Shown here piece after piece: positions 47,334-64,000 of a stretch of DNA of 64,000 bases. Source of the stretch: Hydrogenophaga sp. BPS33. GTDB lineage: Bacteria > Pseudomonadota > Gammaproteobacteria > Burkholderiales > Burkholderiaceae_C. The stretch lies in assembly GCF_009859475.1 (NCBI RefSeq), contig NZ_CP044549.1, forward strand, positions 992,001-1,056,000. Direction: 5' to 3'. A program made the position numbers and the translations under genes. The notes under the pieces were generated by a model that saw only the letters and a program-made list of their open reading frames with translations, was not told the origin of the DNA and searched no databases. Position 1 is the first letter of the stretch, and each line of letters starts with the position of its first letter.

Positions 47334-48053
47334 CTAGACCATTCCGCCGTTCGGTTGCACCACTTGACCCTGAACCCACGAGGCCCGCTCCGACGCCAGA
47401 AAGCCCACCACTTGCGCAATCTCCTCGGGGCGTCCAACGCGTCCCAGCGGGCTCATCGCAGCGGACCTTGCCAATGCCTCGGGCGACTTGCCCGCGCGGA
47501 ACAGATCGGTATCGACCGGCCCTGGAGCCACTGCGTTCACTCGGACTCCGCGGGCCGAGAGTTCGCATGCCATCGCACGCACCAAAGACTCCACCGCTGC
47601 CTTGGTGGCGCTGTATGGGCCGAGACCGGGCGCTGCGCGGCGGACCAGCGATGTGCTCAGGGCGATGATGCTGCCGCCGTCGGCCACCTGGCGGGCCGCT
47701 TCGGCCAGAACGTTGAATGCGCCAACGATGTTGGCTTCCACCAGTTGGCGAAAGCGCTCTGGGTCGAAATCAGCCAATGGCGCGGGCGGCACATTGATGC
47801 CTGCGTTCGCCACGACACACTGAATGTGGCCAGCGAAGTCGCGTCTTGTGAACTCGAACACTTTTCGAACGTCGGCCATTTCTCGGATGTCCGCCTGGTA
47901 GCAGCGCACCGTGCCTTCTGAAGTGCCCGATACGGGCGCACCGGACACACTGGTGTACCCCACGCCGAAGCCATCCGCCGCCAACACCTGCACACAGGCA
48001 CGGCCAATGCCGCGCGAGCCACCGAAGACGATAGCGGTCATTGTTTTGCTCAT
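47334..48053 (-). CDS. Short-chain dehydrogenase/reductase (FabG-like)
   Basis: 239 residues. GGSRGIGRA is the cofactor loop, VANAGIN the NAG motif, ALSTSL the catalytic Ser and YSATKAAVESL the Tyr-x-x-x-Lys pair (about 155-159). AAGGA precedes the ATG at 48053. It is the last gene of the leftward operon led by the flavoprotein; it could oxidise or reduce a hydroxy intermediate released by the ThDP enzyme. Confidence 0.93.
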   Translation of the reverse strand: MSKTMTAIVFGGSRGIGRACVQVLAADGFGVGYTSVSGAPVSGTSEGTVRCYQADIREMADVRKVFEFTRRDFAGHIQCVVANAGINVPPAPLADFDPERFRQLVEANIVGAFNVLAEAARQVADGGSIIALSTSLVRRAAPGLGPYSATKAAVESLVRAMACELSARGVRVNAVAPGPVDTDLFRAGKSPEALARSAAMSPLGRVGRPEEIAQVVGFLASERASWVQGQVVQPNGGMV

Positions 48054-48074
48054 GGTATGTGTCCTTCGGTTCGT

Positions 48075-49853: not shown

Positions 49854-49876
49854 GGCTTGTTCCTGGCGATGATGGC

Positions 49877-51295
49877 TTAGCTGGAGATGGTGACCACACG
49901 CTCTTCGCTCATTTCACGAATGGCGTAGTGCGGCCCTTCGCGTCCGAAGCCGCTGCTTTTCGATCCTCCGTAGGGCATCAAGTCCACTCTGGAGCTGGAG
50001 GTCTCGTTGACATGGACCCCGCCTACCTGCAGCCGACGCGCGGCAAGAAGCGCATCACTCAGCCGATGGGTGAATATGCCGGTCGCGAGGCCGTAAGGTG
50101 TGGCGTTGACCCGGTCGAATGCATCTTCCAGACTGTCAAAAGGCACCAGGCACATGACGGGGCCGAACACTTCCTGGCAGCCCACCTTCATCCGCGCGTC
50201 CACATTGGCAAGCAGCGTGGGGGGCACGACGGATCCCACCCTGTCACCGCCTGCCAGGCGCCGGGCTCCGAGAGCGAGCGCCTCGGTGATCCAGCCTCCG
50301 ACGCGTTGTGCCGCCTCCTCGCTGATGAGCGGACCCACCACGGTGTGCTCGTTGGAGGGATCTCCGAAGGCAAGATCGCGCACCCGACGCGACAGCTCTT
50401 GCTCCACGCGTTGCGCGATCTGTGACTGGACCAGCAGAAGCTGGATGGAAGTGCAAACCTGACCCGCCTTGCGGTAGGCAGCATTGACGATCTTCGGCAG
50501 AGCGCGGTCGAGATCCGCATCGGCACAGACGATGGTGCAGGCTATCGACCCGAGTTCCATCTGCGTGCGCCGCAATCCGGCGGCCTGCTGGATGATGCGT
50601 CCTACCTCGGTGCTGCCCGTGAAGGCGAAGAAGCGCACCGATTCCTGCGATTGCAGGGTCTGCACGGTATCGGCACCGCCGTGCAGCACCGACAAGAATC
50701 CACGCGGGATGCCTGCCTGGACGAGGAGTTCGCCCAGCAGACAGGCTGTCATCGGCGTGTGCGTCGAAGGCTTCAGAACGACGGCATTGCCCGCCGCAAA
50801 CGCCGGACCTATCTTGTGTGCAACGGTGTTCATCGGAGAATTGAACGGTGTGATGGCCGCCACGACCCCCAGTGGCACGCGAAGGGTGAAGCCCATGCGC
50901 TCCCCTTGGTCCGGCGCGCCCTCCAATGGCAGCACGTCGCCACAAAAGCGACGCGCTTCTTCAGCCGAGAGCCGCAGTGTCTCCATGCAACGCCGAACTT
51001 CACCTAGCGCGTCGCTGCGGGGGAAGCCGGCTTCTTGCCGCATCAAGCCGACAAACTCTTCGGCCCGGTCTCCGACAAGGCGTGAAGCCTCCTGCAGAAT
51101 GTGTCCACGCAGATGCGCCACCGGGGCGCCGGCCGCGAACGCCGCATGCGCCATCGCAACAGCCGCTTCGACCTGACGCGTGCCCGCATTCCTGAAGGTG
51201 GCCACGGGAACGCCCCTGAACTTGTCGAGAACCGGGTGCTCCATGCCGTCTCCAGGAACCCATTCGCCTCCGATCAGATGGCGCACTTCCTTCAT
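49877..51295 (-). CDS. Aldehyde dehydrogenase family protein
   Basis: 472 residues. TPFNSPMNTVAHK holds the substrate-orienting Asn, FTGSTEVGR the NAD loop, MELGS the general-base Glu and KAGQVCTSIQ the nucleophilic Cys. The family's ELGG is ELGS here, a mild change. The start overlaps the cupin stop by four bases, and the ThDP gene starts 23 bases downstream of its stop, so these are co-expressed. Aldehyde substrate unknown. Confidence 0.93.
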   Translation of the reverse strand: MKEVRHLIGGEWVPGDGMEHPVLDKFRGVPVATFRNAGTRQVEAAVAMAHAAFAAGAPVAHLRGHILQEASRLVGDRAEEFVGLMRQEAGFPRSDALGEVRRCMETLRLSAEEARRFCGDVLPLEGAPDQGERMGFTLRVPLGVVAAITPFNSPMNTVAHKIGPAFAAGNAVVLKPSTHTPMTACLLGELLVQAGIPRGFLSVLHGGADTVQTLQSQESVRFFAFTGSTEVGRIIQQAAGLRRTQMELGSIACTIVCADADLDRALPKIVNAAYRKAGQVCTSIQLLLVQSQIAQRVEQELSRRVRDLAFGDPSNEHTVVGPLISEEAAQRVGGWITEALALGARRLAGGDRVGSVVPPTLLANVDARMKVGCQEVFGPVMCLVPFDSLEDAFDRVNATPYGLATGIFTHRLSDALLAARRLQVGGVHVNETSSSRVDLMPYGGSKSSGFGREGPHYAIREMSEERVVTISS

Positions 51296-51696
51296 GGGGT
51301 GGTCTCGCTGTCTTCGAACGGTGTGGTGATGACGAAAAACACGAGACCCGATATACCGGTGTTGGCGAACCCGTGCCGCACGCCAGGAGGGATGTATACG
51401 TAGTCATGCGGTCGCATCAGATATGGGTTGTCGTCCAGCGTCAGCACCCCTTCGCCCTCCAGCACGTAGTAGATCTGCTCCTGGACTTTGTGCACGTGGT
51501 CTTCGACGTAGGCAGCGGGCGCGTACCGTGAGATGCGAAAGTCGATGCGGCGCGTGCCGGCGTTGTCCAGACCCACCAGTGCCTTTGAGAGGGCACCGCC
51601 GAAGTGCCCTGGAAACTCTTTCCAGGGCAGATTGGCCATGGTGTGCACGCGTGCCATGTCGCCTTGCGACCGCGATGTGTTTTCGATGGGACTCAT
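51292..51696 (-). CDS. Small cupin-domain protein
   Basis: 134 residues from the ATG at 51696. A single cupin barrel: AAYVEDHVHKVQEQIYYVLEGEG supplies the motif 1 His pair and Glu; PPGVRHGFANTG supplies the motif 2 His. Small cupins of this kind can be isomerases, dioxygenases or lyases on small acids. It lies between the flavoprotein and aldehyde dehydrogenase genes, overlapping the latter by four bases. Confidence 0.85.
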   Translation of the reverse strand: MSPIENTSRSQGDMARVHTMANLPWKEFPGHFGGALSKALVGLDNAGTRRIDFRISRYAPAAYVEDHVHKVQEQIYYVLEGEGVLTLDDNPYLMRPHDYVYIPPGVRHGFANTGISGLVFFVITTPFEDSETTP

Positions 51697-51706
51697 GACA
51701 GTTTCC

Positions 51707-53422
51707 TCAGGCTGGTGCGGCCGAAGCCGGGTGGGTTGATGTCCATGGAGGTCGTTGCGCCACATGGCGACCGGCGAGATAGGCGAAGGTGATCGCGGGA
51801 CCCAAGGTAATTCCGGGCGCAGGGTAGGCCCCTTCCATGACAGAGGCCATGTCGTTGCCACACGCATACAAGCCGTCAATCGCCGCGCCGTCCGCGGTGA
51901 GCACCCGGCCCCTCTGATCCGTGCGAATTCCCGTGGCCATTCCAAGATCCGCCGGCCACACCGCCACTGCGTAGAACGGCGCGCGCAGGATCGGCGCCAC
52001 GCACGGATTGGGTTTGTGGTCACCGTCGCCCATGTGGCGTTGATAGGCATCGCCGCCACGCCCAAAGGCAGGGTCAAGGCCCTCGCGCGCCCCGCTGTTG
52101 TATTGCGCCACGGTATGTGCAAGCGCTGGCGGCGGAACCCCGATGGCTTGCGCGAGCCCTTCCATCGTTCGCGAGCGCTTGAGATAGCCGGACGCTAACT
52201 GACTGTGCAAGGACACCGTGAATGGCTTCACGCATCCGAGACCGTACTTCCACAAGAATCGGCTGTCGCAAACGAGCCATGCCGGAATGGCCCGACCGTC
52301 CTGGCGAAGCTGGCTTTTGACGAACTCGTGGTAGGAGCGCGATTCATTGGTGAAGCGGGCTCCCGCGCTGTTCACGGCGATCAGACCGGGCTTGCCGCGA
52401 TCGGTGACGGTGTGCGGAAAGAGGCCGACGGTGCCGTCTGCACGGACGAAGCGCGACACAGGTACCCAGAACGCACCTTGATCCAGGCCCCGCGACAGCG
52501 TCGCCCCTGCTTCGAGTGCAAGCTTTGCACCCCGTGGGGCACGTCCAGGCGCCGCGCCGGCGGAGAACGTACCCGCGTTGGATGGAACGCTCCGCGCCCG
52601 AAGTTCACCGGCATGGGACAGCCCGCCGCTGGCCAGTACCACGCCGCGCAACGCGCCGAGCCGTTCAACCGTGTCTGCACGGCCTGCCACGCACACCCCG
52701 CGCACGCGTCCCTCTGACAAGTCCAGTTGCAGTGCTGCCGTTCCGGTACGGATCGTCACACCGAGTCGCATGGCGGATTCGTACAGCCGGGCTGCGAGCG
52801 CATTGCCCAGGTACAAGGTCGTGCCACGTGGCCATGCAAGCCGCTGTCGACCGTACCTCAGTAGAAGCTTGGCAACGTGCACAGCCGAGGTCATCGAAGT
52901 CGACGCACGGCGGAGGTGGGGAATGTCCTGCCGGCTGACCATCATTCCGCCGAACAGCATGAACTCGGGCAAGGGTGCTCGCAGCGACTTGAAGTGCGCA
53001 CCCAATGCGGTCGCGTCATACGGTTCAGGTTCCAGAACGCGACCGCCCGTGGTTGCGCCGGGCAAGTCGGGGTAGTAGTCGGGGTAAACCGCCACCGGGC
53101 GCATGCGCAGTTGGGTGTGCTTCTCCATGTACCGCAGGGCTTCGTTGCAATGCGAGAGAAAGGCCTCCAACCTGTCTCTGTCGGTACCAGGAACCGCGTG
53201 CGACAAGTAGGTACGCGCTGCGCAAATGGTGTCTTGCACGCCTGTCTTTTGCATGTGGAAGTTCGCCGGCATCCACACCATGCCGCCCGAGATGGCCGTC
53301 GTTCCCCCCACCTGTTCGGCCTGCTCCAACACCAGCACGGACGCGCCTTCGGCGGCGGCAACACATGCGGCGCTGAGCCCGGCGACTCCGGACCCGACAA
53401 CGATCACGTCCCATTCATCCAT
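51707..53422 (-). CDS. FAD-dependent oxidoreductase, 3-ketosteroid delta-1-dehydrogenase-like
   Basis: 571 residues. VVGSGVAGLSAACVAAAEGA is the FAD dinucleotide loop near residue 10, and GGTTAISGGMVWMP the second FAD contact. The C-terminal YACGNDMASVMEGAYPAPGITLGPAITFAY matches the FAD/substrate region of KstD-type dehydrogenases (GND...YPGPG). These introduce a C=C bond next to a carbonyl, not only in steroids. First gene of the leftward operon; divergent from the CaiB gene across an AT-rich region with the shared TATCTAAT element. Confidence 0.88.
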   Translation of the reverse strand: MDEWDVIVVGSGVAGLSAACVAAAEGASVLVLEQAEQVGGTTAISGGMVWMPANFHMQKTGVQDTICAARTYLSHAVPGTDRDRLEAFLSHCNEALRYMEKHTQLRMRPVAVYPDYYPDLPGATTGGRVLEPEPYDATALGAHFKSLRAPLPEFMLFGGMMVSRQDIPHLRRASTSMTSAVHVAKLLLRYGRQRLAWPRGTTLYLGNALAARLYESAMRLGVTIRTGTAALQLDLSEGRVRGVCVAGRADTVERLGALRGVVLASGGLSHAGELRARSVPSNAGTFSAGAAPGRAPRGAKLALEAGATLSRGLDQGAFWVPVSRFVRADGTVGLFPHTVTDRGKPGLIAVNSAGARFTNESRSYHEFVKSQLRQDGRAIPAWLVCDSRFLWKYGLGCVKPFTVSLHSQLASGYLKRSRTMEGLAQAIGVPPPALAHTVAQYNSGAREGLDPAFGRGGDAYQRHMGDGDHKPNPCVAPILRAPFYAVAVWPADLGMATGIRTDQRGRVLTADGAAIDGLYACGNDMASVMEGAYPAPGITLGPAITFAYLAGRHVAQRPPWTSTHPASAAPA

Positions 53423-53482
53423 GCCTTGCGTTTCTTGTGTATGGGTGTAGCTGAAATCAAATTATCTCGTTAAACTATAACA

Positions 53483-53498
53483 GATATCTAATCTATAG
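53483..53498. promoter_or_regulatory. Shared element, copy A (flavoprotein/CaiB divergent region)
   Basis: GATATCTAATCTATAG, read on the + strand, lies 61 bases before the flavoprotein ATG and 17 before the CaiB GTG. The 93-base divergent region is strongly AT-rich. The core TATCTAAT recurs, exactly or as TATCGAAT, before three other transcription units of the island (copies B to D). Confidence 0.5.
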
Positions 53499-53514
53499 AA
53501 ACAGGAGCAAGTGC

Positions 53515-54720
53515 GTGACCGTCCAACATCAAGGGCCCCTCGCGGGCATCAAGGTAGTCGAACTCGGATCCATGATTGCGGGTCCCTTTTCCGCCACGCT
53601 GCTGGCCGATTTCGGGGCCGAGGTGATCAAGGTTGAACAGCCTGGAACAGGTGACCCAATGCGGCAGATCGGGCCTTTCACCGAAGGTGAAAGCCTCTGG
53701 TGGAACGTGGAGGCGCGCAACAAGCGCTCCATCACGCTGGATCTGCATGCGCAAGAGGGTCAAGAGTTGCTGCGTGACCTGGTTGGGCAGGTGGATGTGC
53801 TGATTGAGAACTTTCGCCCTGGCACCATGGAACGCTGGGGCTTGGGCTGGGAGCGGCTCTCTGGCATCAATCCGAAACTCATCATGGCCAGCATCTCGGG
53901 ATACGGACAAAGTGGCCCGTATTCGCAGCGACCCGCATACGACCGAATGGCGCAAGCGTTCGCCGGCATCCTGAACATGACCGGCTTTCCGGACCGCCCG
54001 CCCGTGCGCCCGGGCGTGGCCATAGCCGACTACGGCACGGCGGTGTTCGCGGCCTTTGCCATCATGATGGCGCTGTACCACCGCGACGCGCGCGGCGGGC
54101 AGGGACAGCAGATCGATGCAGCGATGTTCGAGGCCATGTTCAGGCTGACCGACAACATGGTCACTTGCTACGACCAGCTTGGCGCGACGCGTTCGCGCTC
54201 GGGCAATCTGAACCGCAATGCAGCACCCGGCGATCACTTCGTGACCAAGGACAATCGCTATCTGGTCGTCACCGTGTCCAGCGACGCCTTGTTCGCCAGA
54301 CTCTGCACCTGCATGGACCGCGTGGATCTCATCACCGATGAGCGATTCTCCTCCCACGACGCGCGCGCGGCGCGCCTGCCGGAAATCAATGGCATCGTGG
54401 GCGACTGGGTGCGGTCCATGACGGCCCAGGAAGCATGCGAGAAGCTGGATGGCGGGCAACAGCCGAATTCGTTGATCTACGGCGTCGAAGAGATCATGGC
54501 GGATCCGCACTACGCGTTCCGGGGTTCGATCGCCACCGTGCAACATCCGCGCATTGGGCCGATCAAGATGCAAGGTGTGTCGCCGCGTCTGCTGGGAACG
54601 CCCGCGCCAGAGATCCGCCCCGCGCCGACATTGGGGGACGCGACCGAGGATGTGATCGTCAATCTCCTCGGACGCAGTGCCGAAGAGTTGGCGCATCTGC
54701 GCAGCATTGGCGTGGTGTAA
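53515..54720 (+). CDS. CaiB/BaiF (class III) CoA-transferase
   Basis: 401 residues from a GTG at 53515, after ACAGGAG. IKVVELGSMIAGPFSATLLADFGAEVIKVEQP, ENFRPGTMERWGLGWERL and ISGYGQSGPYS are family segments; the catalytic Asp is probably in VAIADYGTAVFAA. It is the only rightward gene of the island and should start catabolism by making a CoA ester. Two hairpins follow its stop. Confidence 0.93.
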   Translation: MTVQHQGPLAGIKVVELGSMIAGPFSATLLADFGAEVIKVEQPGTGDPMRQIGPFTEGESLWWNVEARNKRSITLDLHAQEGQELLRDLVGQVDVLIENFRPGTMERWGLGWERLSGINPKLIMASISGYGQSGPYSQRPAYDRMAQAFAGILNMTGFPDRPPVRPGVAIADYGTAVFAAFAIMMALYHRDARGGQGQQIDAAMFEAMFRLTDNMVTCYDQLGATRSRSGNLNRNAAPGDHFVTKDNRYLVVTVSSDALFARLCTCMDRVDLITDERFSSHDARAARLPEINGIVGDWVRSMTAQEACEKLDGGQQPNSLIYGVEEIMADPHYAFRGSIATVQHPRIGPIKMQGVSPRLLGTPAPEIRPAPTLGDATEDVIVNLLGRSAEELAHLRSIGVV

Positions 54721-54727
54721 AAGAAAT

Positions 54728-54785
54728 CGGCGCCAAGATGGCGCCGCCTGCAAGTGCGCAAGGGCCCGCTGCTGCGGGGCCCTTG
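54728..54785. terminator. Paired hairpins between the convergent CaiB and surE genes
   Basis: CGGCGCC (54728-54734) pairs with GGCGCCG (54740-54746), and on the - strand it is followed by a T-rich tract, so it can end surE transcription. CAAGGGCCCGC (54759-54769) pairs with GCGGGGCCCTTG (54774-54785) with one bulge, followed on the + strand by TGCTTTCT. Together they look like a bidirectional terminator. Confidence 0.65.
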
Positions 54786-54799
54786 TGCTTTCTACGACT

Positions 54800-55612
54800 T
54801 CAAAATGCCGCAGGCGCGCCGTCATGCGCCGTCGATGTGAGCCGCAGACGCGATCCGATGTCCGCGCACAGGCGGCTGTTGCCGGGTGCCACCTCCTGAA
54901 ACCGCCCGTTGTGAACCGTGATGGACACAAAACCGTTCATGACCGCATGCGAGTCGTGCTGCGCGGACGCGCCGGACACCGGGCGCTCCAGCTTCATCCG
55001 GAGTTCGCCGTTCACCATCTCCACGCCGACGTCGACCAGGCCTTCGGGCGCGATCTCGGCGTGCTGCACGCCCTTGAGTGCTCCGGCGCTGCAGTTGGGC
55101 ATGTTGATGTTCAGCGCCAGGGGTGGTCCATCTGCCTGTTGCAGAAGTTCGATGGCGCTGACCACCACATCCGCGGCCATTTGCAAATTGCTCTGCGATG
55201 CATCCTTGGCGCAACTGATGGCCACGGCGTTCAGCCCTGACGCGCACGCGGTCAGTGCGGCCCCCACGGTGCCTGAGTGGAGGATGGACGCACCGGCGTT
55301 CCAGCCGTAGTTGATTCCGGAGACGACGACCTCGGGCTCCCAGTCGAACACGCCGCTGCGCACGGCCTTGACTGAGAATGCAGGTGGTCCATCAATCACC
55401 AACACGCGCATGCCCGGCAGCGCTTCGCGGGTGACTTCGCGCCACGCCACTTGGGCGCCGTGTTCCACCGGACCGAGCGACGCGCTGCCGCCGCTTTGCT
55501 GCTCCTGCGGCGCGGCGACCATCACCTCGTGGCCCGCCGCAGCCAACCGCTGGGCCATTATCGCCAGGCCCACCGCGGTGTAGCCGTCGTCATTGGTGAC
55601 CAGCACTTTCAT
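54800..55612 (-). CDS. surE: SurE-type 5'/3'-nucleotidase (phosphatase)
   Basis: 270 residues. The metal-binding Asp pair is in VTNDDGYTAVG (residues 8-9), the Ser in QQSGGSASL and the Asn in VSGINYGWNAGASI, all as in SurE. SurE proteins are Mn/Mg-dependent phosphatases of nucleotides and small phosphoesters. This one is not in the usual surE-pcm-nlpD setting: its ATG overlaps the stop of a helical-protein gene that itself follows an APH-type kinase gene, so a role in a small-molecule phosphorylation cycle is suspected. Confidence 0.9.
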   Translation of the reverse strand: MKVLVTNDDGYTAVGLAIMAQRLAAAGHEVMVAAPQEQQSGGSASLGPVEHGAQVAWREVTREALPGMRVLVIDGPPAFSVKAVRSGVFDWEPEVVVSGINYGWNAGASILHSGTVGAALTACASGLNAVAISCAKDASQSNLQMAADVVVSAIELLQQADGPPLALNINMPNCSAGALKGVQHAEIAPEGLVDVGVEMVNGELRMKLERPVSGASAQHDSHAVMNGFVSITVHNGRFQEVAPGNSRLCADIGSRLRLTSTAHDGAPAAF

Positions 55613-56151
55613 GAACGCATTCCTTGGTTGTATGCAGCGACGTTGAGGTACGTGCTGTAGTGTGGCAAGGCGCCCATGTCCACATCGACGGCCAGTGGCT
55701 CGTACCAAGAGCGTTCAAACGCGAGCAACTCGGCGGAGCGTTCGATCACCGCCCGTTCCACGCGCGCGCGCAGGCCAGACTTGTCCGAGGCCAGTTGGCG
55801 AACCAACTCGTCCACCGCTTCGGCAATAGCGCGGGATGCCTGGCGCAAATCGTCTGCTGAGCTCTTGCCGCAGTGCACGTCTCGTACCGCTGAAACGGCT
55901 TTCGCCAACGCCTGACCGCGCGGCGCGTCCACGATATCCAGCGCGGCATGCGCCAGGGCTCGGTTCTGATCGAGCTCGTACTCCAGCTGTGGCATCACCA
56001 AATCCAGCCGCTCGCGCAAGAAGGCAAGAAATTCGATCGCCAGACCGAGCTGTTCCTTGGCAATGGGGTCGGCGGGATCGATCGCGGGCATCACCACGTC
56101 GCTCAGCGACTTGATGACGGAACCCAGTCCGTTGTCCATGTGATTCGCCAT
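55609..56151 (-). CDS. Small all-helical protein of unknown function, partner of the kinase gene
   Basis: 180 residues, predicted mostly helical: DPIAKEQLGLAIEFLAFLRERLDLVMPQLEYELDQNRALAHAALDI, then several further amphipathic helices ending YSTYLNVAAYNQGMR. No signal peptide or membrane segment. I do not recognise a family with confidence. Its ATG at 56151 overlaps the kinase stop by one base, and GGAG lies before it. The arrangement recalls LvaA/LvaB, where a small protein is needed for hydroxyacyl-CoA kinase activity; the likeness is in gene order, not in shown homology. Confidence 0.7.
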   Translation of the reverse strand: MANHMDNGLGSVIKSLSDVVMPAIDPADPIAKEQLGLAIEFLAFLRERLDLVMPQLEYELDQNRALAHAALDIVDAPRGQALAKAVSAVRDVHCGKSSADDLRQASRAIAEAVDELVRQLASDKSGLRARVERAVIERSAELLAFERSWYEPLAVDVDMGALPHYSTYLNVAAYNQGMRS

Positions 56152-57389
56152 CAGAGTCTCTCCTTGAGCAAGGTCGCCAAGGTGTTCAGGTTCGACGGCA
56201 CCATGGCTCTCAGCCGCGCGAGCAACACGTCCTGGTGCGAGCGCCCGAGGCGTGTCACCCGGTACGAGGTGGCAAGCAGCGTGGCCACGAGCTGGTAGGC
56301 GTTGAGCACGCGGTAGTAGTGCAGAGTGTCTTCGTTCACCGACAGGCCCGAGACGGCCTCGTACTCGCGGTAGAACGTGTTCATGGGCACGAGGCCGCAG
56401 ACCATGTAGGTTTTGCCATCCGTATCGAGATGGCCGAACATGCGTTGGGTGGTCCACGCAAGATCGCGGTGCCGGTCGCCGAGATATCCGCGCTCCCAGT
56501 CCAGCCAGGCTGTGAACTGAAAACTCACGGGGTCATACAGAAAGTTGCCGCTGCGGTAGTCGCCGTGCACCACGCTGACCTTGTCGAGCTTGGGCAGGTT
56601 TCTCTCCAGCCAGTTCGCCGCCACCGCCATCAATGGTGCGCTGTCGCCAGCGTCTTCCTCCCACACGCGGTGGGCGCGGTTGAGTTGGAGCACGGCGGAC
56701 TCGGTCGAGTCGACGCGGGGTGCGTCCATGCTCTTGAAGTCGTACTGGGTGTGGTCGAAGGTGTGGATCTTGGCGAGATAGCCCAAGAACTGCGGCGCGA
56801 GTTGGGCACGCAGCTCGGGCCCGAAATCGGTGCCCATGCCCGCGATCTTTCCGCTGTGCGTTGCGGGTGGCTTGGTCACGCCATTGGCGAACGAGTAGAT
56901 CAGCGCGGGCTCCGGAAACCAGTCGCCGTGCTCGTCGAGGAAATAAACGTCCGGCACAGGCACCACACCCTTGAACGCTTGCAAGAGCTCGTACTCGCGC
57001 AGCCGGCTGTTGGAGTTCAGCGCCTCTGCCGGTTCCATGCGCAGCACCAGCGCTTCTTTACGGGGTTTGCCCGCGCCTTCGGTCCAGGCCAGGTCGAAAG
57101 CCACTTGCAGTTTGGATGCGCCGCCGTTGAGCCAGCGCACATGGGACACCTCGAACGTGCCGTCGAGCTTGTCGGCGAGGAAGTTCGAGAGATATCCGCT
57201 GAGTGTTTCCAGGCTGGGGCGGCTGAACTGGCCCTGGTTGCGTCTCTCCATCTTGCGGGCCAGTGACTTCTCGATCTCTCTCTCGACCGGATACTGGCGC
57301 GTCAGCTGCGCGATGAAGTCCTGCGTGGGTCTGTCGCGCAATGTGTCGTCTTGGGTGAGCACGGTGACCTCCCTCTCAATGACGCGCAT
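56151..57389 (-). CDS. APH/choline-kinase-fold phosphotransferase
   Basis: 412 residues. VVHGDYRSGNFLYD (His275, Asp277, Asn282) is the catalytic loop and TAWLDWERGYLGDRHRDLAW the metal-binding Asp region. LSGYLSNFLADKLDG and VRWLNGGASKLQVAFDL mark an N-lobe like that of ACAD10/LvaA-related kinases. These phosphorylate hydroxy groups of small acids or CoA esters. It overlaps the preceding DUF gene by 14 bases and the helical-protein gene by one base. Substrate unknown. Confidence 0.85.
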   Translation of the reverse strand: MRVIEREVTVLTQDDTLRDRPTQDFIAQLTRQYPVEREIEKSLARKMERRNQGQFSRPSLETLSGYLSNFLADKLDGTFEVSHVRWLNGGASKLQVAFDLAWTEGAGKPRKEALVLRMEPAEALNSNSRLREYELLQAFKGVVPVPDVYFLDEHGDWFPEPALIYSFANGVTKPPATHSGKIAGMGTDFGPELRAQLAPQFLGYLAKIHTFDHTQYDFKSMDAPRVDSTESAVLQLNRAHRVWEEDAGDSAPLMAVAANWLERNLPKLDKVSVVHGDYRSGNFLYDPVSFQFTAWLDWERGYLGDRHRDLAWTTQRMFGHLDTDGKTYMVCGLVPMNTFYREYEAVSGLSVNEDTLHYYRVLNAYQLVATLLATSYRVTRLGRSHQDVLLARLRAMVPSNLNTLATLLKERL

Positions 57390-58371
57390 GCCGAGACATA
57401 CGGTCGGCGATGTAATCGGTGCCGAAGATATCGCCCGTCTGCCCGTAGCCGATGCGGCCTCGGTATTCGTACCGATACAGCGACTGGAACATCACGTAAG
57501 CGGGGTTGAAGGTGCTGTAGGGGTAGCCGGCGATCGCAGTGCCTTCAAGCACGTGTTCCTGCCCCCGCACATCGATGGCGCGGATGATCTGTCGCATGCC
57601 GATCATGTTGTCGCGTTCCGGCGTTTCCACGGTCGCTTCCACGATGCCGTAGATCTTGCCGCTCTCGACCACGAAGCCGAAACGTGCCGGGTCGCTGGAG
57701 ACGCGGCCGCGCTCGATCTTCAAGGGCACCGAAAGTTGCATGCCGAAGTCCTCGCCGAAGGCCACCGAGAGGTACGATTCAGCCCGCGCGCTGACCTCTG
57801 CGCGTGGTCCCCAGCTGTGGTCCGTGCCGTCGTAACAATCCACCTTGTACTTCTTGCCCCGCAGCTCAAGCGTGCCGGTAATGTGGCCCTTGAGTTCGAA
57901 GTGCCCGTTCTTCCACGGGTCGCCGAAGCGTGCGTCGGTCGGGTTGGACGTGCTCGACTTGGCCATCAGCACGTTTTCCTCGGGGTCGTGGATGTCGAAG
58001 GGTTGGTGCAGGCCACGGAAGTTGAGATCGAATCTGCACGAGCCCAACGCGTGTTCGTATGTGAAGTGGAAGTCCCGCGGTGGCTTGGTGGCTTTCACCG
58101 ACAAGCCGTTCTCGAGTGTGAAATCGCTCAGATCTTTTGGCGCCGTGAGGTGCATCTGGGAGTCAAGAAAGTCGATCTCGTGCACGTTCCTGCAGATGCC
58201 CTTGGCAATCGCGATCGAGGAGATCGCGGCGCCCAGGTTGGGTCTGGTGAGAACGTATGCAATGCCGCAGATCTGCTCTTCGGGAATGTTGAAGAGGATG
58301 GGCATGGTCTCGACCCACGTGCGGATGCTCGGGTCCCGATCGTGGTACTTGACGTCTTCCGGTTTGATCAT
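57376..58371 (-). CDS. Uncharacterised beta-rich protein (DUF7064/7065-like)
   Basis: 331 residues. It has an alternating beta-strand pattern with many aromatics: NGHFELKGHITGTLELRGKKYKVDCYDGTDHSWGPR, then YLSVAFGEDFGMQLS and YGIVEATVETPERDNM. The DHSWG motif occurs in lipocalin-like AttH/CrtC-type proteins that bind or hydrate hydrophobic ligands. Relatives are often annotated DUF7064/DUF7065 and sit next to APH-type kinases, but I rely on memory for that. Second in the operon led by the Bug gene. Confidence 0.65.
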   Translation of the reverse strand: MIKPEDVKYHDRDPSIRTWVETMPILFNIPEEQICGIAYVLTRPNLGAAISSIAIAKGICRNVHEIDFLDSQMHLTAPKDLSDFTLENGLSVKATKPPRDFHFTYEHALGSCRFDLNFRGLHQPFDIHDPEENVLMAKSSTSNPTDARFGDPWKNGHFELKGHITGTLELRGKKYKVDCYDGTDHSWGPRAEVSARAESYLSVAFGEDFGMQLSVPLKIERGRVSSDPARFGFVVESGKIYGIVEATVETPERDNMIGMRQIIRAIDVRGQEHVLEGTAIAGYPYSTFNPAYVMFQSLYRYEYRGRIGYGQTGDIFGTDYIADRMSRHARH

Positions 58372-58429
58372 CGTGTCGCCTTGTTTCTGCTGAAGTTGGG
58401 AAATGGGGATGAAGGGCCGCGCCGAGCGA

Positions 58430-59425
58430 TCACGTGTCGGCCTTGATGTTGAGTTCCTTCACGAGCGCGGGGAACACCTGCAGCTCTCCCTGGATCATCG
58501 AATTGAAGTCTGGGGTGTTCAGGTAAATGCCTTCGGCGCTGGCGCCCGCAAATTTCTCCATCACCGCAGGGGTGTTGACGGTTTTGGAGAGCACGTCGGA
58601 GATGCGCGCCATGGCGGCGGCCGGGGTGCCGATCGGTGCATACACGCCCACCCAGGAATAAAAGTCCATCTTCGGCAAGCCCGCTTCCTTCATCATGGGC
58701 ACCTCTGGAAATTGCGGAATGCGCTTGCTGCCTGCGGTGGCCAGCAGCAGCAGCTTGCCGCTGCGCACATGCGGGAAGGCCACGCCGGGATCGATCACGA
58801 AATCCACCTCGCCGGTGAGCATGGCTTGCAGCGCCGGACCGGAGCCCTTGTAGGGCACGTGCGTCGCGCGGATGCCGGCCTGCTTCAGCATTGCTTCGGC
58901 CACCAGATGCGGCACGGTGCCGGAGCCGGTGGAGGCAAAGCTCATCTTGTCCGGATTGGCGCGGCCATACGCCAGGAACTCCTGGAAGGTCTTGAACGGC
59001 AGACCCGTGCGCGACACCAGGTGCAGCGGGTAGCGACCCACCGAGGCGATCGGAATCAGGTCTTTCGCGGGGTCGATTGCCATCTTGAAGATGTGCGGAC
59101 TGGTCGTGATTTGCGTGGTGGGCGCGAACAACAACGTGTAGCCATCGGCCGGTGCGCGCGCCACGTCCACGGTGGCGATGTTGCCGCTGGCACCGGGCCG
59201 GTTTTCGACGATGACGGGCTGGCCCAGCAGGTCGCTCATCGGCTGGGAGAGCACGCGCGCCATCACGTCGGACCCGCCACCGGGTGCGAAACCGAGGACG
59301 AGGCGCACCGGCTTGGTCGGCCATGCGGCAGTCTGCGCGTGCAGCGAAGGCAGCACCGCTGTGGCGGCCGCACCAGCGGTCAAGGCAGCGAACTGGCGGC
59401 GGTTGGGGCGAAACGGAGTGGTCAT
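58430..59425 (-). CDS. Bug/TctC family periplasmic solute-binding protein
   Basis: 331 residues from the ATG at 59425 (MTTPFRPNRRQFAAL), after AAAGGTG. The signal is twin-arginine-like (NRRQFAAL) and ends near LHAQ. Bug motifs: RLVLGFAPGGGSDVMARVL, VENRPGASGNIAT and ADGYTLLFAPTTQ. It is closely similar to the Bug protein at 61849-62835, suggesting duplication inside the island. It heads the operon with the DUF, kinase, helical and surE genes, so its ligand may be their substrate. Confidence 0.92.
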   Translation of the reverse strand: MTTPFRPNRRQFAALTAGAAATAVLPSLHAQTAAWPTKPVRLVLGFAPGGGSDVMARVLSQPMSDLLGQPVIVENRPGASGNIATVDVARAPADGYTLLFAPTTQITTSPHIFKMAIDPAKDLIPIASVGRYPLHLVSRTGLPFKTFQEFLAYGRANPDKMSFASTGSGTVPHLVAEAMLKQAGIRATHVPYKGSGPALQAMLTGEVDFVIDPGVAFPHVRSGKLLLLATAGSKRIPQFPEVPMMKEAGLPKMDFYSWVGVYAPIGTPAAAMARISDVLSKTVNTPAVMEKFAGASAEGIYLNTPDFNSMIQGELQVFPALVKELNIKADT

Positions 59426-59474
59426 GAACATCACCTTTCAGAACGGAAACTGAGGAATGGGATTTTCTGTGCGA

Positions 59475-59501
59475 ACTATCTAATTTATGCAAATCAGATA
59501 G
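59475..59501. promoter_or_regulatory. Shared element, copy B, within a near-perfect inverted repeat
   Basis: CTATCTAATTT (59476-59486) and AAATCAGATAG (59491-59501) form an inverted repeat matching at 10 of 11 pairs around ATGC. The site is 50 bases before the Bug gene starting at 59425. The left arm contains the island's shared TATCTAAT core. Symmetry suggests a dimeric repressor or activator. Confidence 0.55.
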
Positions 59502-59586
59502 CTAGTTTAGGCATACTAAAGAAAATCAGGCACCGGGGTTTACCACTACCGACGGCACCGCTTCGCAGCAGCGTTGAGCGCAAAGA

Positions 59587-59616
59587 AAAAGGCCCGGTCT
59601 AGTGACCGGGCCTTTT
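59587..59616 (-). terminator. Rho-independent terminator after the MmgE/PrpD gene
   Basis: AAAAGGCCCGGTC (59587-59599) pairs perfectly with GACCGGGCCTTTT (59604-59616) around a TAGT loop, followed on the - strand by a T-rich tract. It lies 20 bases beyond the MmgE/PrpD stop, so it ends that leftward operon and separates it from the Bug-kinase operon. Confidence 0.9.
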
Positions 59617-59635
59617 CCATCGGGTGATCAGCCGT

Positions 59636-60982
59636 TCAGGGGTGCGTGAGGATCTCCATGAGCGGCTTCACGTTGGGCATCGTGTCCAGCGCGAACAACA
59701 TGTCGGCGCCTTCGTTGGCGCGTGCCAACGGCAGGATGCCGTCGGTGCAAGAGAGGTACTTGCCACGCACCTCCTCGTCGGTCAACGGATCTTCGGGATC
59801 GCCATGCGACACCACACAAAGCTTTTGGTATTCGCGGCCATCGCGCGTGCGCACGGTCAGGGGGTTGGACTCGCCCAGAATGGCGCGGGGCCAATCGTGG
59901 CGAACGACCAGCTCGGTCTTGCTCCACTGCGCTTGCAGGTGCGATTCCTTGACGCCTTCGTCGGTGAACGTGCGGATCGAGATCTCTTCCCCGCTGATCG
60001 CGGCCGCCACGCAGTGGTGCATGCTGAAGCGCGACTCTTCACCGTTGCGCGGCGCGGGAAACTTGATGATCTCCAGGAAGGTCGGATTCACTTCGATCGA
60101 GACCTTCTCCACGTCATTCGCGGTGAGCTGGTTTTGCTGCACGATCTCGATCACGCCGTCGACGATGCGCTGCATCAGGTAGCAAGCGGTGTATTTCTTG
60201 AAGCCGACCTCCATCACGCGCAGATCGCTTCCCCGGCCCAACGGAAACTCCAGGTCGGGCATGCCGGCCAGCATGTCGAAGTAGCCGCGCCGGCCTTCGA
60301 ACACATTTTCTTCACCGGTCAATCCCAGCTTGGCGAGCTTGGCGGCGCTGATGCCGTTGCGCCCGGCCACGCCCGCCTCGTACAGATGCGCACCCGTGCC
60401 CATCTGTCGCGTGGAGCCGCTGGCTTGTGACACCGCCAGGCTGAGCGCCATGCGAGTCTCTTCCCTGCTGAGTTTGAGCAACTTGGCCGCCGCTCCTGCG
60501 ACCCCGATGGCGCCTAGGCTCGGTGCCGTCAGAATGCCACGGTCGTTGGCGCCGCCGTTGGTGAGCACCATGCCGGGCCGCGCCTGGATCTCGTAGCCCA
60601 AGATGAAGGCTTCGAGAATCTCTTTGCCGGAAGAACCCAGCTCCTCGCCGAGTGCGAACACCGCAGGAATGATGTGGCAGGTGTACATGGACTCCGGCCA
60701 GCTGTCGTCCTCCAGCTCGGTGCTGTGGGCTGCGGTGGCGTTGACCAGCGCGGCCATTTCGGCCGTGGTGCTGAAGCCTGCACCGATCACGCCGCTGCGC
60801 GGCGTGCCCCCGGCGTCGCGTGCATAGCGTGCGAGCACCTCGCCCGCGTGGATGCGCGAGCCCGCAACGGCCATGCCCAGCGCGCTCACTGAGAGCGTCT
60901 TGGCCTTGTGGTGGACATCAGGGTGGAAGTCATCCCAGCCGGTTTTGAAGAGATAGTCGGCGACCCGTTCCGTAGCGTTCAT
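59636..60982 (-). CDS. MmgE/PrpD family protein
   Basis: 448 residues. TAAHSTELEDDSWPESMYTCHIIPAVFALGEELG is the family's helical core (about 85-118), and KKYTACYLMQRIVDG its later signature. Members include 2-methylcitrate dehydratase, cis-aconitate decarboxylase and amide or epimerase-like enzymes, so a dehydratase or decarboxylase of a polycarboxylate-like substrate is probable. AGGAA precedes the ATG at 60982. Downstream in the same operon as the dehydrogenase and Bug genes. Confidence 0.9.
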   Translation of the reverse strand: MNATERVADYLFKTGWDDFHPDVHHKAKTLSVSALGMAVAGSRIHAGEVLARYARDAGGTPRSGVIGAGFSTTAEMAALVNATAAHSTELEDDSWPESMYTCHIIPAVFALGEELGSSGKEILEAFILGYEIQARPGMVLTNGGANDRGILTAPSLGAIGVAGAAAKLLKLSREETRMALSLAVSQASGSTRQMGTGAHLYEAGVAGRNGISAAKLAKLGLTGEENVFEGRRGYFDMLAGMPDLEFPLGRGSDLRVMEVGFKKYTACYLMQRIVDGVIEIVQQNQLTANDVEKVSIEVNPTFLEIIKFPAPRNGEESRFSMHHCVAAAISGEEISIRTFTDEGVKESHLQAQWSKTELVVRHDWPRAILGESNPLTVRTRDGREYQKLCVVSHGDPEDPLTDEEVRGKYLSCTDGILPLARANEGADMLFALDTMPNVKPLMEILTHP

Positions 60983-61003
60983 TCTGGTTCCTGTGTGAAA
61001 TTC

Positions 61004-61852
61004 TCAGCCGCGTTCGCGCAAGATCGATTTGCGCTCTTCGGCCAGGCGCGGTCCGGCCAAGGCGACCAGACCGGAAATCGTGAGTTCGACGCCCTTTTGC
61101 TTGCCCGCCTCGACAGCCTCCCAGAGGTCTTTGTAGAACACGTCGGGCTGCGGGTGGGTGGTGAGCAGGTTGTCGAAGAACCCCTCGTTCTCGATGAACC
61201 ACGAATTGCCCGTGCTCACCCTGGCGCATTCGACAATGGCTTCCTCACAGATGCCGTAGGCGCTCGCGAGCTTCTTTGCCTCGGACACCACGAAGGCATT
61301 GCACAGCGCCATCATGTTGTTGCACAGCTTGGCAATGGAGCCGGCGCCCGGTGCGTCTCCGATGTGGAAGATGTTTTTGCCCACGGCCTTCAAATAGCCG
61401 TCGCAGCGCCGCACCGCCTCGGTGTCGCCGCCCACCATCAGCGTCAACGTGCCGGCCACCGAGCCCGCGCGGCCGCCGCTGACGGGAGCATCCACCAGAT
61501 CCCAACCGCGGGCGGCACAGTCTGCGGCAAGGCGCTGCACCATCTGGGGGGTGATCGTGCTGTGGATCAACACCGTGCGCGCCGTGGCCTGGCTGGCGAA
61601 GAGACCGCGATCGCCGTAGAAGCAGTCGAGCAGCTGCGTCTCGCTCCACACGCACAGGCCGATCAACTCGCTCGTGTCGGCGAGCGCCCGCAAGCTGTCT
61701 GCGAGGTGCGCGCCTTTGTCCTTGGCCACGGCCAGTGGCTCGCTGCGCACATCGAACACGGTCAGGTGAAAGCCCTTGCCCACCAGGTTGTGGGCCATGG
61801 GCTCGCCCATGTCACCCAGCCCCACGAATCCTACGCGCTGTTGAATGCTCAC
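61004..61852 (-). CDS. 3-hydroxyisobutyrate dehydrogenase-family NAD(P)-dependent oxidoreductase
   Basis: 282 residues. VGLGDMGEPMAHNLVGKG is the Rossmann loop (about 9-26), DAPVSGGRAGSVAGTLTLMVGG the substrate-binding region, and SIAKLCNNMM supplies the catalytic Lys. Family members oxidise beta-hydroxy acids or reduce tartronate semialdehyde. The start overlaps the Bug stop by four bases, and MmgE/PrpD follows after 21 bases, forming one operon. Confidence 0.92.
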   Translation of the reverse strand: MSIQQRVGFVGLGDMGEPMAHNLVGKGFHLTVFDVRSEPLAVAKDKGAHLADSLRALADTSELIGLCVWSETQLLDCFYGDRGLFASQATARTVLIHSTITPQMVQRLAADCAARGWDLVDAPVSGGRAGSVAGTLTLMVGGDTEAVRRCDGYLKAVGKNIFHIGDAPGAGSIAKLCNNMMALCNAFVVSEAKKLASAYGICEEAIVECARVSTGNSWFIENEGFFDNLLTTHPQPDVFYKDLWEAVEAGKQKGVELTISGLVALAGPRLAEERKSILRERG

Positions 61853-62835
61853 GAGTCTGCCTTGATGTTGAGGTCCCGAACCAGGCGGGAGAATACTTGC
61901 GTCTCGCGCTTGATGAGTGCCTGGAAATCGCTGGCGTTCAGGTAGATCACCTCGGCGCCCGCCGTCAGGAATTTGTCGATCACCACCGGGTTCGTCACGG
62001 CCTTGGACAACACCTCAGAGACCCGGGCGTTGACGGCGGCGGGCGTGCCGGCCGGCGAGAACATGCCGACCCATGAGTAGAAATCCATCTGCGGAAGGCC
62101 TGCCTCTTTCATGGTGGGCACATCGGGGAATGCCGCGATGCGCTTGTTGCCCGCCGTGGCCAGCAGTGCGAGCTTGCCATTGCGCACATGTGGGAAGGCG
62201 ATGCCCGGATCGATCACGAAATCAGCCTCGCCCGTGAGCATGGCTTGCAGCGCGGGCCCCGACCCTTTGTACGGAACATGCACCGCCTGAATGCCGGCTT
62301 GCTGCAGCATCGCCGCGGCCACCAGGTGCGGTGTGGTGCCGGGACCGGCGGACGCGTAGGTCAGCTTGTTGGGGTTGGCGCGGCCGTGGTCCAGGAACTC
62401 CTTGAATGTCTTGAACGGCAGGCCCAGCCGCGTCACCAGGTGGAGTGGGTAGCGGCCCACGGCGGCCACCGGCACGAGGTCTTTCTCCGGGTCCACCGGC
62501 ATCTTGAAGATGTAGGGGTTTGCGGTGAGTTGCGTGGTCGGTGCGAACAGCAGCGTGTAGCCGTCGGCCGTGGCGCGCGCCGCTTCCACCGTGGCGATGT
62601 TGCCGCTGGCACCCGGCTTGTTGTCGACGATGACGGGCTGGCCCAGCGCGTCGATCATGGGCTGGGAGAGCACGCGCGCCATCACGTCGGAGCCGCCGCC
62701 GGGGGCGTAACCCAGCACCAGGCGCACAGGCCGCGCAGGCCAGTTGCCTTGCGCGCGCAGCGAGGGCGATAGGGCGGCGGCCGCTAGTGCCGCGGACAGG
62801 GCGGTGAAACGCCGTCGATTGAGGGGGGGAGACAT
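61849..62835 (-). CDS. Bug/TctC family periplasmic solute-binding protein
   Basis: 328 residues from the ATG at 62835 (MSPPLNRRRFTAL), after AAAGGTG. Twin-arginine-like signal ending near LRAQ. The mature sequence runs parallel to the Bug protein at 58430-59425 over its whole length, for example VRLVLGYAPGGGSDVMARVL and HVPYKGSGPALQAMLTGE; I estimate roughly 70 per cent identity by eye. It heads the operon with the hydroxyacid dehydrogenase and MmgE/PrpD genes. Confidence 0.92.
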   Translation of the reverse strand: MSPPLNRRRFTALSAALAAAALSPSLRAQGNWPARPVRLVLGYAPGGGSDVMARVLSQPMIDALGQPVIVDNKPGASGNIATVEAARATADGYTLLFAPTTQLTANPYIFKMPVDPEKDLVPVAAVGRYPLHLVTRLGLPFKTFKEFLDHGRANPNKLTYASAGPGTTPHLVAAAMLQQAGIQAVHVPYKGSGPALQAMLTGEADFVIDPGIAFPHVRNGKLALLATAGNKRIAAFPDVPTMKEAGLPQMDFYSWVGMFSPAGTPAAVNARVSEVLSKAVTNPVVIDKFLTAGAEVIYLNASDFQALIKRETQVFSRLVRDLNIKADS

Positions 62836-62896
62836 CGATGCACCTTTCCGGCTTGAAACCGTTAGCAAAAAAGAAGTGGGGTTGTATGCAATATCA

Positions 62897-62910
62897 GAAT
62901 ATTAGATATC
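62897..62910. promoter_or_regulatory. Shared element, copy C
   Basis: On the - strand this reads GATATCTAATATTC, 62 bases before the Bug ATG at 62835. It shares the ten bases GATATCTAAT with copy A, in an AT-rich stretch. The surroundings hold short inverted repeats (ATATC and GATAT arms), consistent with a dimeric DNA-binding protein. Confidence 0.5.
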
Positions 62911-62962
62911 GATCTTATGTATGCTCTCGCCTGTGAATCGCTCGGGTTAACCCCGATCGGCA

Positions 62963-63937
62963 TCAGTTTTTTGCCCGCGGGCGCAGGATGGCTCTCCATT
63001 GTTCAAGGTCCTTCTGCTGCTGGTCCGCCAGTTGCCGCGAGTTCATGATCCAGGGTTCGTAGCCCAACTTTTCCAGGGCCGTCAGATACGCCTGCGACTG
63101 TTGCACCTTGGCCATCTCCGCGCCGATGCGGCCCACGATCTCGGGCGGCATGCCGGCCGGCCCGTACAAGCCAAACCAGCCGACGTGGTCGTATCCGGGC
63201 ACCGTTTCGCTCACCAGTGGCACTTCGGGGAACGCAGGATGCCGCTTGGAGCCGCTCATGGCAATCGGAATCAGCTTGCCGGAACGGATGAGCGCGATGG
63301 AACCGCCCACCGGGTCGGCCACGAAATCGACGTGTCCGCCCATCAGGTCGGCCAGCGCGGGCGCGCCGCCTTTGTAGGGCACGTCGGTGAACTTGGTGCC
63401 GGTCTTCTCGGCCAGCAAGATGCCGGCGAGGTGGCTGCCGGTGCCCAGACCTGATGAGCCGAAGCTCACCTTGCCTGGCGTGGCGCGGGCCTTGGCGATC
63501 AGATCGGCCACGCTTTTCATACCCGAGGCGGGAGCCACGTTCAGCACATATTGAAAGTTCGCAATGCCTGCGAGTGGCGTGAAGCTCTTGATGGTGTCGA
63601 AGGGCAGGGGAGCCTCGGACTGGTGTGGCATGACGGCTTGCACGCTGTTGGCGCTGGTGCCGATCGTATAGCCGTCCGCGGGGCTTCTGGAGAGCCGATC
63701 CACCCCCACGGCGCCGGCGGCCCCCGTGACGTTCTCGACCACGATGGATTGCCCCAGCGCCTGTCCAAGCTGCTCGGCAGCGAGGCGCGAAACGATGTCG
63801 GTGGCGCCGCCGGCCGGGAACGGAACGATCCAGCGGATCGGCCGCGCGCTGGGCCAGGTGCCCTGTGCCGTGGCCGCGGTACTGAGCACGGCCAATCCGC
63901 CTGCCAGACCCAAAAGAAACGAAGCCCTTCGCAACAT
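62963..63937 (-). CDS. Bug/TctC family periplasmic solute-binding protein
   Basis: 324 residues from the ATG at 63937, after CAGGAG. Sec signal (RRASFLLGLAGGLAVLSTAATAQ). Bug motifs: IRWIVPFPAGGATDIVSRLA, VENVTGAAGAVGVDRL and ADGYTIGTSANS. It differs clearly from the other two island receptors, so it probably binds another ligand. It stands alone: the next gene to the left has its own promoter element. Confidence 0.91.
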   Translation of the reverse strand: MLRRASFLLGLAGGLAVLSTAATAQGTWPSARPIRWIVPFPAGGATDIVSRLAAEQLGQALGQSIVVENVTGAAGAVGVDRLSRSPADGYTIGTSANSVQAVMPHQSEAPLPFDTIKSFTPLAGIANFQYVLNVAPASGMKSVADLIAKARATPGKVSFGSSGLGTGSHLAGILLAEKTGTKFTDVPYKGGAPALADLMGGHVDFVADPVGGSIALIRSGKLIPIAMSGSKRHPAFPEVPLVSETVPGYDHVGWFGLYGPAGMPPEIVGRIGAEMAKVQQSQAYLTALEKLGYEPWIMNSRQLADQQQKDLEQWRAILRPRAKN

Positions 63938-63982
63938 GTCGTGTCTCCTGTTAGTGATGCAAACGCCGAAAAGCAAATCGAA

Positions 63983-63996
63983 ATATATTCGATATC
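63983..63996. promoter_or_regulatory. Shared element, copy D
   Basis: On the - strand this reads GATATCGAATATAT, 46 bases before the Bug ATG at 63937 and close to the window edge. It keeps the GATATC-AAT frame of copies A and C with one base changed in the core (TATCGAAT). An imperfect palindrome, TCGAA and TTCGA arms, overlaps it. Confidence 0.45.
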
Positions 63997-64000
63997 TGTT

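Follow-up and report, generated by a model that had tools for sequence, protein, structure and literature searches.

We analyzed a 64,000-nucleotide stretch of the Hydrogenophaga sp. BPS33 genome (contig NZ_CP044549.1, positions 992,001 to 1,056,000, hereafter the window) for a cassette of four genes, encoding a DUF7064/7065 protein, an APH-fold kinase, a 180-aa protein named here the helper, and a SurE-family phosphatase (Table 1). All four genes, proposed earlier by a model from the sequence alone (the original prediction), were confirmed on the minus strand. They had been described as overlapping end to end, which holds for two junctions: the kinase and helper genes share 1 base in TGATG, and the helper and SurE genes share 4 bases in ATGA. 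The DUF gene and the kinase gene are instead probably separated by a 13-nt gap. A kinase start at ATG 57389 would overlap the DUF gene by 14 nt and add 9 aa, but GTG 57362 is most likely the true start, because the ribosome-binding-site-like GAGAGGGAGG precedes it and two relatives (P0013 and P0014, 403 aa) begin exactly at its residue.

The gene order was found beyond the source genome, which the original prediction had named as a check. A scan with the kinase alignment across 84,980 species, with one genome per species, gave 229 confirmed relatives, from which the best 77 loci were kept. Judged by simple adjacency, 48 of the 77 loci have the helper after the kinase, 52 have the DUF7065 gene before it, and 33 have both. 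Among kinases of at least 300 bits the helper follows in 48/51 and the DUF7065 gene precedes in 34/51, against 0/26 and 18/26 among the weaker kinases (<300 bits), which are mostly from Gammaproteobacteria. Protein clustering placed the DUF7065 family in 71 of 79 stretches, with the window and a second locus of the source genome (L013) counted. DUF7065-kinase-helper is an unnamed cassette, recurring at the closer loci in Alpha- and Betaproteobacteria and Actinomycetota, and the DUF7064/7065 protein is about as fixed in it as the helper, a point overlooked in the original prediction. All four genes, with SurE directly after the helper, were found in 5/77 loci (L017, L032, L039, L042 and L052), the SurE counts coming from a six-frame search.

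The source genome carries a second DUF7065-kinase-helper cassette without SurE at C1:5651.2-5653.9 kb (L013:9173-11873), whose helper and kinase are 38% and 55-56% identical to those in the window. It is flanked by TctC-clustering genes and lies near two acyl-CoA dehydrogenases (ACADs), an enoyl-CoA hydratase and an ATP-grasp CoA ligase. In the sampled genome sets, which overlap between searches, the four-gene module is sporadic and nearly confined to the source genome. The helper was present in 2/250 genomes of the family, the second being only a 63-residue match (E 8e-4), and SurE at E 1e-33 in 1/399 genomes of the order and 1/398 of the phylum, the lone match being the source genome. The kinase at E 1e-70 (1/398 genomes of the phylum) and the upstream MmgE/PrpD protein at E 1e-100 (1/369 of the class) were likewise found in the source genome only. 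A plasmid search with the kinase returned seven records, with a best identity of 50.8%. The cassette has presumably moved horizontally.

The cassette SurE scores 141 bits against PF01975 (Pfam cut-off 22.1), yet stays under the cut-offs of all 13 listed NCBIfam SurE models (best 129 vs 271; TIGR00087, 118.7 against 135.1). It keeps D8, D9, S40 and N101, and the conserved Ser is a metal-site residue. The original prediction was right that this SurE stands outside the pcm/nlpD setting, which belongs to the other, canonical SurE of the genome (C1:3961596), behind which come a PCMT gene and one of the LysM-M23 (NlpD-like) type. A review (PMC8475336) supports both the DD motif and the role of the Asn in metal binding.

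A tree of 58 SurE rows was built from the window's protein, P0132-P0179, P0183, P0191, P0200, the five locus SurEs and the canonical SurE of the genome. Cassette-linked proteins fall into clade A (window, P0132-P0144 and L017) and clade B (L032, L039, L042 and L052), and the metal-site residues are kept in 15/15 clade-A and 4/4 clade-B rows. Forcing the two into one clade cost 29.7 log units (approximately unbiased test, p-AU 0.003), a post hoc test as the clades were named after the tree was seen. A single SurE lineage inherited along with the cassette was rejected at this p value. All four clade-B loci share the order DUF7065-kinase-helper-SurE-SDR (SDR, short-chain dehydrogenase/reductase), a divergent SDR gene, and LivF-type ATP-binding cassette (ABC) genes. 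Since two SurE lineages are attached to the same cassette, the pairing of kinase and SurE is not one frozen accident.

The kinase tree of 65 rows (window, L013, loci with a kinase >320 bits, and P0013-P0025) needs two changes of SurE status, a count that excludes eight P rows of undefined status (all but P0013, P0016, P0019, P0021 and P0025). One of them, P0024, has a distance of zero to the L017 kinase and is for that reason taken to be SurE-linked in fact. The L014 row was left out of the trees. SurE-bearing kinases as one clade were not rejected (p-AU 0.216). Taken together, the two trees therefore mean that SurE was either gained twice or replaced once, and a functional tie of SurE to the cassette is likely under both readings.

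Linkage was also followed among protein relatives, taken as the best 120 of 1780 kinase matches and the best 120 of 5848 SurE matches. Apparent same-contig pairing with a listed kinase or helper match was seen for 8/13 closest SurE relatives listed vs 1/104 further SurEs (104 of the 106 rows P0145-P0250), and for 7/8 vs 0/39 others listed on contigs of at least 5 kb; it was judged from equal size of the longest contig, which is indirect and not proof. The SurE-bearing relatives are metagenome bins and the like, with doubtful species labels; L042, titled Bordetella parapertussis, is metagenome bin HRSG-H13-bin-83. AMP-forming ligases are encoded in 0/5 SurE-bearing loci vs 20/29 other core loci (p 0.007) and LivF-type ABC genes in 4/5 vs 6/29 (p 0.019), both weak differences, being two of 14 uncorrected tests with four of the five SurE-bearing loci closely related. 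Loss of ACAD genes as a mark of the SurE-bearing loci was rejected (2/5 vs 16/29, no difference). The rows P0145-P0250 (e.g. P0153, P0169 and P0176) form a large group of non-canonical SurE proteins, with Rhodococcus, Nocardioides and Dactylosporangium among the named organisms, and the PPA and HSGT changes are shared by most of the 38 non-canonical SurEs placed in the tree. An actinobacterial SurE gave no match in a plasmid search.

The kinase motifs HGDYRSGN and DWE are invariant in 16 aligned sequences, and the seven NCBIfam kinase models that it matches are missed by far at their cut-offs. The kinase profile scored 57.7 bits against 3ats, which we take to be Mycobacterium tuberculosis Rv3168, and 39-43 bits, i.e. 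not better, against ACAD11. The helper matched no Pfam family at E 0.1, no NCBIfam family at E 0.01, and only PDB entries at E 0.52 or worse; its position after the kinase suggests a role as kinase partner. LvaB is presumably a DUF6285 protein. The helper as a homologue of that family was rejected, as none of 21 helpers had a DUF6285 match in Pfam and hhalign of the helper profile against one DUF6285 protein found nothing. At five more distant loci (L067, L069, L071, L076 and L081) the kinase is preceded, not followed, by a weak helper match, and four of these have more than one kinase match in tandem.

The DUF7064/7065 protein matches PF23212 (DUF7064) at 34.1 bits and PF23213 (DUF7065) at 33.9 bits, against cut-offs of 24.7 and 27, and all 13 members of the DUF7065 alignment, window protein included, match both. 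Compared with 12 proteins of the CrtC/AttH family (PF07143), this alignment scored 31.8, with four controls at 19.3 or less. Widening the alignment to 83 members gave 35.8 (E 5e-4, 57 columns), against 12 controls of 20.5 (reversed), 21.2, 14.7 and 16.7 (unrelated alignments) and at most 18.9 (eight shuffles). The match is centred, in register, on DHSWG of DUF7065 and DHEWS of CrtC/AttH, and the motif Trp is kept in 78/83 rows. A profile search of the PDB with the DUF7065 alignment gave one chance match (E 0.17). In CrtC, His239 and Trp241 are essential, and the enzyme adds water to an isolated alkene to form a tertiary alcohol, according to excerpts of PMC4717167. The His and Trp of the DUF7065 motif may be this same pair, and a phosphate-eliminating role of the protein is attractive because the chemistry of CrtC is of the reverse type. 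The comparison weakly suggests kinship with CrtC/AttH, which would make the protein a candidate for the missing step; we regard it as a lead and not as a result.

Several further genes may belong to the module (Table 1). The original prediction placed a Bug receptor gene directly before the cassette; this Bug/TctC gene indeed lies upstream, with 58 nt between its end and the DUF gene, and is probably in the same operon, and TctC genes are present in 11/34 core loci. Further upstream on the same strand are the genes of the MmgE/PrpD protein and the 3-hydroxyisobutyrate-dehydrogenase (HIBADH)-type protein, then those of two further TctC receptors, while a CoA-transferase III gene converges on the cassette from the opposite side. 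The MmgE/PrpD protein, overlooked in the original prediction, is a probable extra member of the clade-A module, judged by its 63% identity over 446 aa to the copy adjoining the same cassette in L017 (an uncultured Sphingomonadaceae metagenome-assembled genome), about equal to that of the two kinases (61-62%). Among solved structures it is closest to chains named IDS-epimerase and IRG1/cis-aconitate decarboxylase, and none of the four clade-B stretches has a MmgE/PrpD match at E 1e-15. A HIBADH-type family member also adjoins the cassette in L017, but the two copies share only 32% identity over 218 columns, and this gene was therefore rejected as a conserved cassette member.

Table 1. Features of the cassette and its surroundings, in window coordinates.
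Feature	Position	Strand	Evidence and remarks
DUF7065/DUF7064 protein, 331 aa	57376..58371	-	PF23213 33.9 bits, PF23212 34.1 bits; candidate CrtC/AttH-like enzyme
APH-fold small-molecule kinase, 403 aa	56151..57362	-	PF01636 63.3 bits
Helper, 180 aa, without known family	55609..56151	-	Putative kinase partner; TGATG junction
Non-canonical SurE-family phosphatase, 270 aa	54800..55612	-	PF01975 141 bits; ATGA junction
Bug/TctC solute receptor	58430..59434	-	PF03401 243.7 bits
MmgE/PrpD-family protein	59636..60982	-	PF03972/PF19305
3-Hydroxyisobutyrate-dehydrogenase-type oxidoreductase	61004..61852	-	PF03446/PF14833
Terminator-like hairpin 3' of SurE, possible operon end	54728..54746	-	

Six terminator-like sites, this hairpin among them, were found in 53400-64000 where 8.2 are expected by chance, and the hairpin alone is weak evidence for an operon end. 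Rfam gave no match anywhere in the window, and the GC content is 0.618-0.642 from 48 kb onward vs 0.629-0.674 before. A minus-strand run at 47334-53422 encodes an SDR, a ThDP enzyme, an aldehyde dehydrogenase, a cupin and a 3-ketosteroid-dehydrogenase-like FAD oxidoreductase; it may belong to the pathway of the cassette or to another.

These observations support a kinase-plus-phosphatase module. We tentatively read it as a catabolic module for hydroxyl phosphorylation with SurE as a relief or repair phosphatase, a reading whose chances we put somewhat short of even. A carboxylic or terpenoid-like compound with an unreactive (secondary or tertiary) hydroxyl would be imported, and the kinase together with the helper would transfer the phosphate of ATP onto that hydroxyl. 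The DUF7065/7064 protein would then act on the phosphoester, in the simplest case by eliminating phosphate to leave an alkene, and SurE would hydrolyse stalled, misplaced or excess phosphorylated compound and so prevent its build-up. Precedents by analogy for this logic may be seen in LvaA/LvaC, in ACAD10/11 and in the 25-hydroxysteroid kinase (25-HSK), and for a brake of phosphatase fold in the HAD domain of ACAD10. Excerpts of PMC11342911 and PMC12440821 report that 4-hydroxyacyl-CoAs are first phosphorylated, by LvaA or by the kinase domains of ACAD10/11, and then undergo ACAD-type elimination, and that the ACAD10 HAD domain restrains its kinase, yet has negligible phosphatase activity. The 25-HSK of Sterolibacterium denitrificans phosphorylates the tertiary C25 alcohol of 25-hydroxysteroids, according to parts of PMC8449060; the same parts give the 25-phosphosteroid lyase as unknown and report that no gene close to that of the kinase is a candidate for it, and an excerpt of PMC11061730 gives it as putative. 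The kinase also phosphorylates 26-alcohols, a side reaction called 'rather problematic' for the cell in PMC8449060 (excerpt), though it is described there as largely prevented in vivo.

Several points weigh against this reading. SurE was not seen in 72/77 loci, some of these stretches ending just after the kinase so that absence there is uncertain, and it is accordingly not required for the core reaction. The kinase tree allows one gain followed by SurE replacement. The CrtC/AttH match has a probability of 30% over 57 columns. In Pfam at E 1, PF07143 was not hit by any of the 13 DUF7065 alignment members, and AttH structures were missing from the matches listed up to E 10 when the PDB was searched with the profile of that alignment. 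Of the 83 DUF7065 rows, 54 have His at the motif position and 29 have Arg or Lys. The bolder form of the proposal, in which DUF7064/7065 would be a new class of CrtC-fold phosphate-eliminating lyases replacing LvaC/ACAD11, with SurE recruited twice as a proofreading phosphatase, is to our mind distinctly unlikely.

The phosphate could instead be kept on the substrate while the DUF7065 protein and/or the MmgE/PrpD protein alter it, so that its removal by SurE would be an obligatory last step. SurE is the last of the four genes with one gene between it and the kinase, the SDR encoded directly after it in 4/4 clade-B loci could act on the freed alcohol, and the MmgE/PrpD protein is as conserved between the window and L017 as the kinase. 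However, the cassette has no SurE in view in 72/77 loci (some cut off, and other phosphatases not sought) and clades A and B have different added genes; we consider this course rather unlikely. It is unlikely as well that SurE is an ordinary nucleotidase, hydrolysing nucleotides (e.g. in AMP handling or salvage) with no link to the kinase product. Characterised SurEs are 5'/3'-nucleotidases and exopolyphosphatases, according to an excerpt of PMC8475336, and the metal-site residues here are unchanged; on the other hand, a canonical SurE is already present in the genome next to PCMT and NlpD-like genes, two SurE lineages joined the same cassette, and AMP-forming ligases are missing from the five SurE-bearing loci (p 0.007, uncorrected). 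The APH fold would also fit a kinase that inactivates an antibiotic-like molecule, with SurE reactivating or clearing it, and kinase inactivation of a peptide antibiotic is known (listing of PMC10996006). The neighbours are however of catabolic kinds (CoA-transferase, SDR, enoyl-CoA hydratase, ACAD, receptors; biosynthetic gene clusters were not searched for) and the kinase is far under the cut-offs of the NCBIfam kinase models, which makes detoxification or self-resistance very improbable.

In a true Lva-type pathway, the kinase and helper would phosphorylate a 4-hydroxyacyl-CoA and an ACAD encoded elsewhere would eliminate the phosphate. ACAD genes lie within at most 10 kb per side in 16/29 SurE-free and 2/5 SurE-bearing core loci, and an ACAD11-like enzyme is encoded in the genome at C1:77.4-78.6 kb; at E 1e-60, its relatives of solved structure are ACAD11 chains (best E 4.4e-70) and one putative acyl-CoA dehydrogenase. 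This enzyme, however, has its own adjoining APH kinase and DUF6285 partner, within a set at C1:77.0-80.4 kb (L099:7012-10416) that also includes an enoyl-CoA hydratase. The original prediction that no LvaC-type ACAD is nearby was borne out, as the 15 annotated genes from 47.3 to 63.9 kb include none, and neither Pfam nor hhalign (run with one DUF6285 protein) relates the helper to DUF6285. A pathway of this type is thus improbable for the cassette, and Lva-like chemistry is more likely done by the C1:77.0-80.4 kb set, which is separate from the cassette and looks like an ordinary 4-hydroxyacyl-CoA kinase/lyase set. The original prediction of a hydroxyl-phosphorylation module comparable to LvaAB stands as far as kinase, near-constant small partner and SurE are conserved as a unit, and is not supported as to homology with LvaAB. 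LvaAB serves as an analogy only, since the helper matches no family, the 15 neighbouring genes include no ACAD, and the genome has its ACAD11-like set at another place.

Phosphorylation followed by phosphate elimination is a route for compounds beyond ordinary beta-oxidation. The eliminating enzymes identified in excerpts of PMC11342911 and PMC12440821 are of the ACAD type, and a cassette with a near-constant DUF7065 protein and often no ACAD is a direct candidate for another kind. The analysis suggests that phosphorylation serves some bacteria to activate an unreactive alcohol group, and that these bacteria carry an enzyme of their own for removing the phosphate. If so, a nucleotidase family would gain a new kind of role through the link of SurE to a catabolic kinase in two lineages. 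Should the bolder form of the proposal hold, the DUF7064/7065 family would be a place to seek the missing 25-phosphosteroid lyase. A literature search, judged by title and with few subscription papers in scope, found no description of an arrangement of SurE with a catabolic kinase.

Compared with LvaA/LvaB/LvaC and ACAD10/ACAD11, the cassette would by analogy share the activation of a hydroxyl by an APH-fold kinase in a catabolic setting. LvaB is, in the original prediction, a small protein beside the kinase, and the helper likewise adjoins its kinase; unlike the Lva system, the cassette has the DUF7065 protein in place of an ACAD, and its helper shows no kinship in sequence to DUF6285. ACAD10 carries a phosphatase-fold domain that restrains its kinase, whereas the SurE of the cassette is free-standing and its metal site is intact; a full DxD motif is lacking in the ACAD10 HAD domain (PMC11342911/PMC12440821). 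The 25-HSK system resembles the proposal for the cassette in reaction logic, with ATP-dependent dehydration and unwanted phosphoesters made by the kinase; 25-HSK is described as a monomer in an excerpt of PMC8449060 and has no lyase candidate near its gene, whereas the cassette has a proposed helper and the DUF7065 protein. The likeness of DUF7065 to CrtC/AttH (PF07143) is weak and absent from Pfam and PDB profile searches, and 29/83 rows have Arg or Lys in place of the motif His. A likeness to a mycobacterial pair is indicated by the match of the kinase profile to 3ats, presumably Rv3168, at 57.7 bits, but the DUF7065 protein reaches only 19.9 bits against the family model of Rv3169 (NF053593), far below its cut-off of 150. 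The kinase-like Rv3168 and Rv3169 are encoded in one operon in M. tuberculosis, and a helper or SurE is not mentioned in the excerpts of PMC5340868, unlike in the cassette. With the SurE 5'/3'-nucleotidase (UmpG), the cassette SurE shares the fold family, the DD motif, the metal-binding Asn and the conserved Ser; it differs from the UmpG type in its catabolic operon, not pcm/nlpD, in scores below all 13 listed NCBIfam SurE cut-offs, and in PPA and HSGT in place of the TPA and YSGT of the canonical SurE in the genome.

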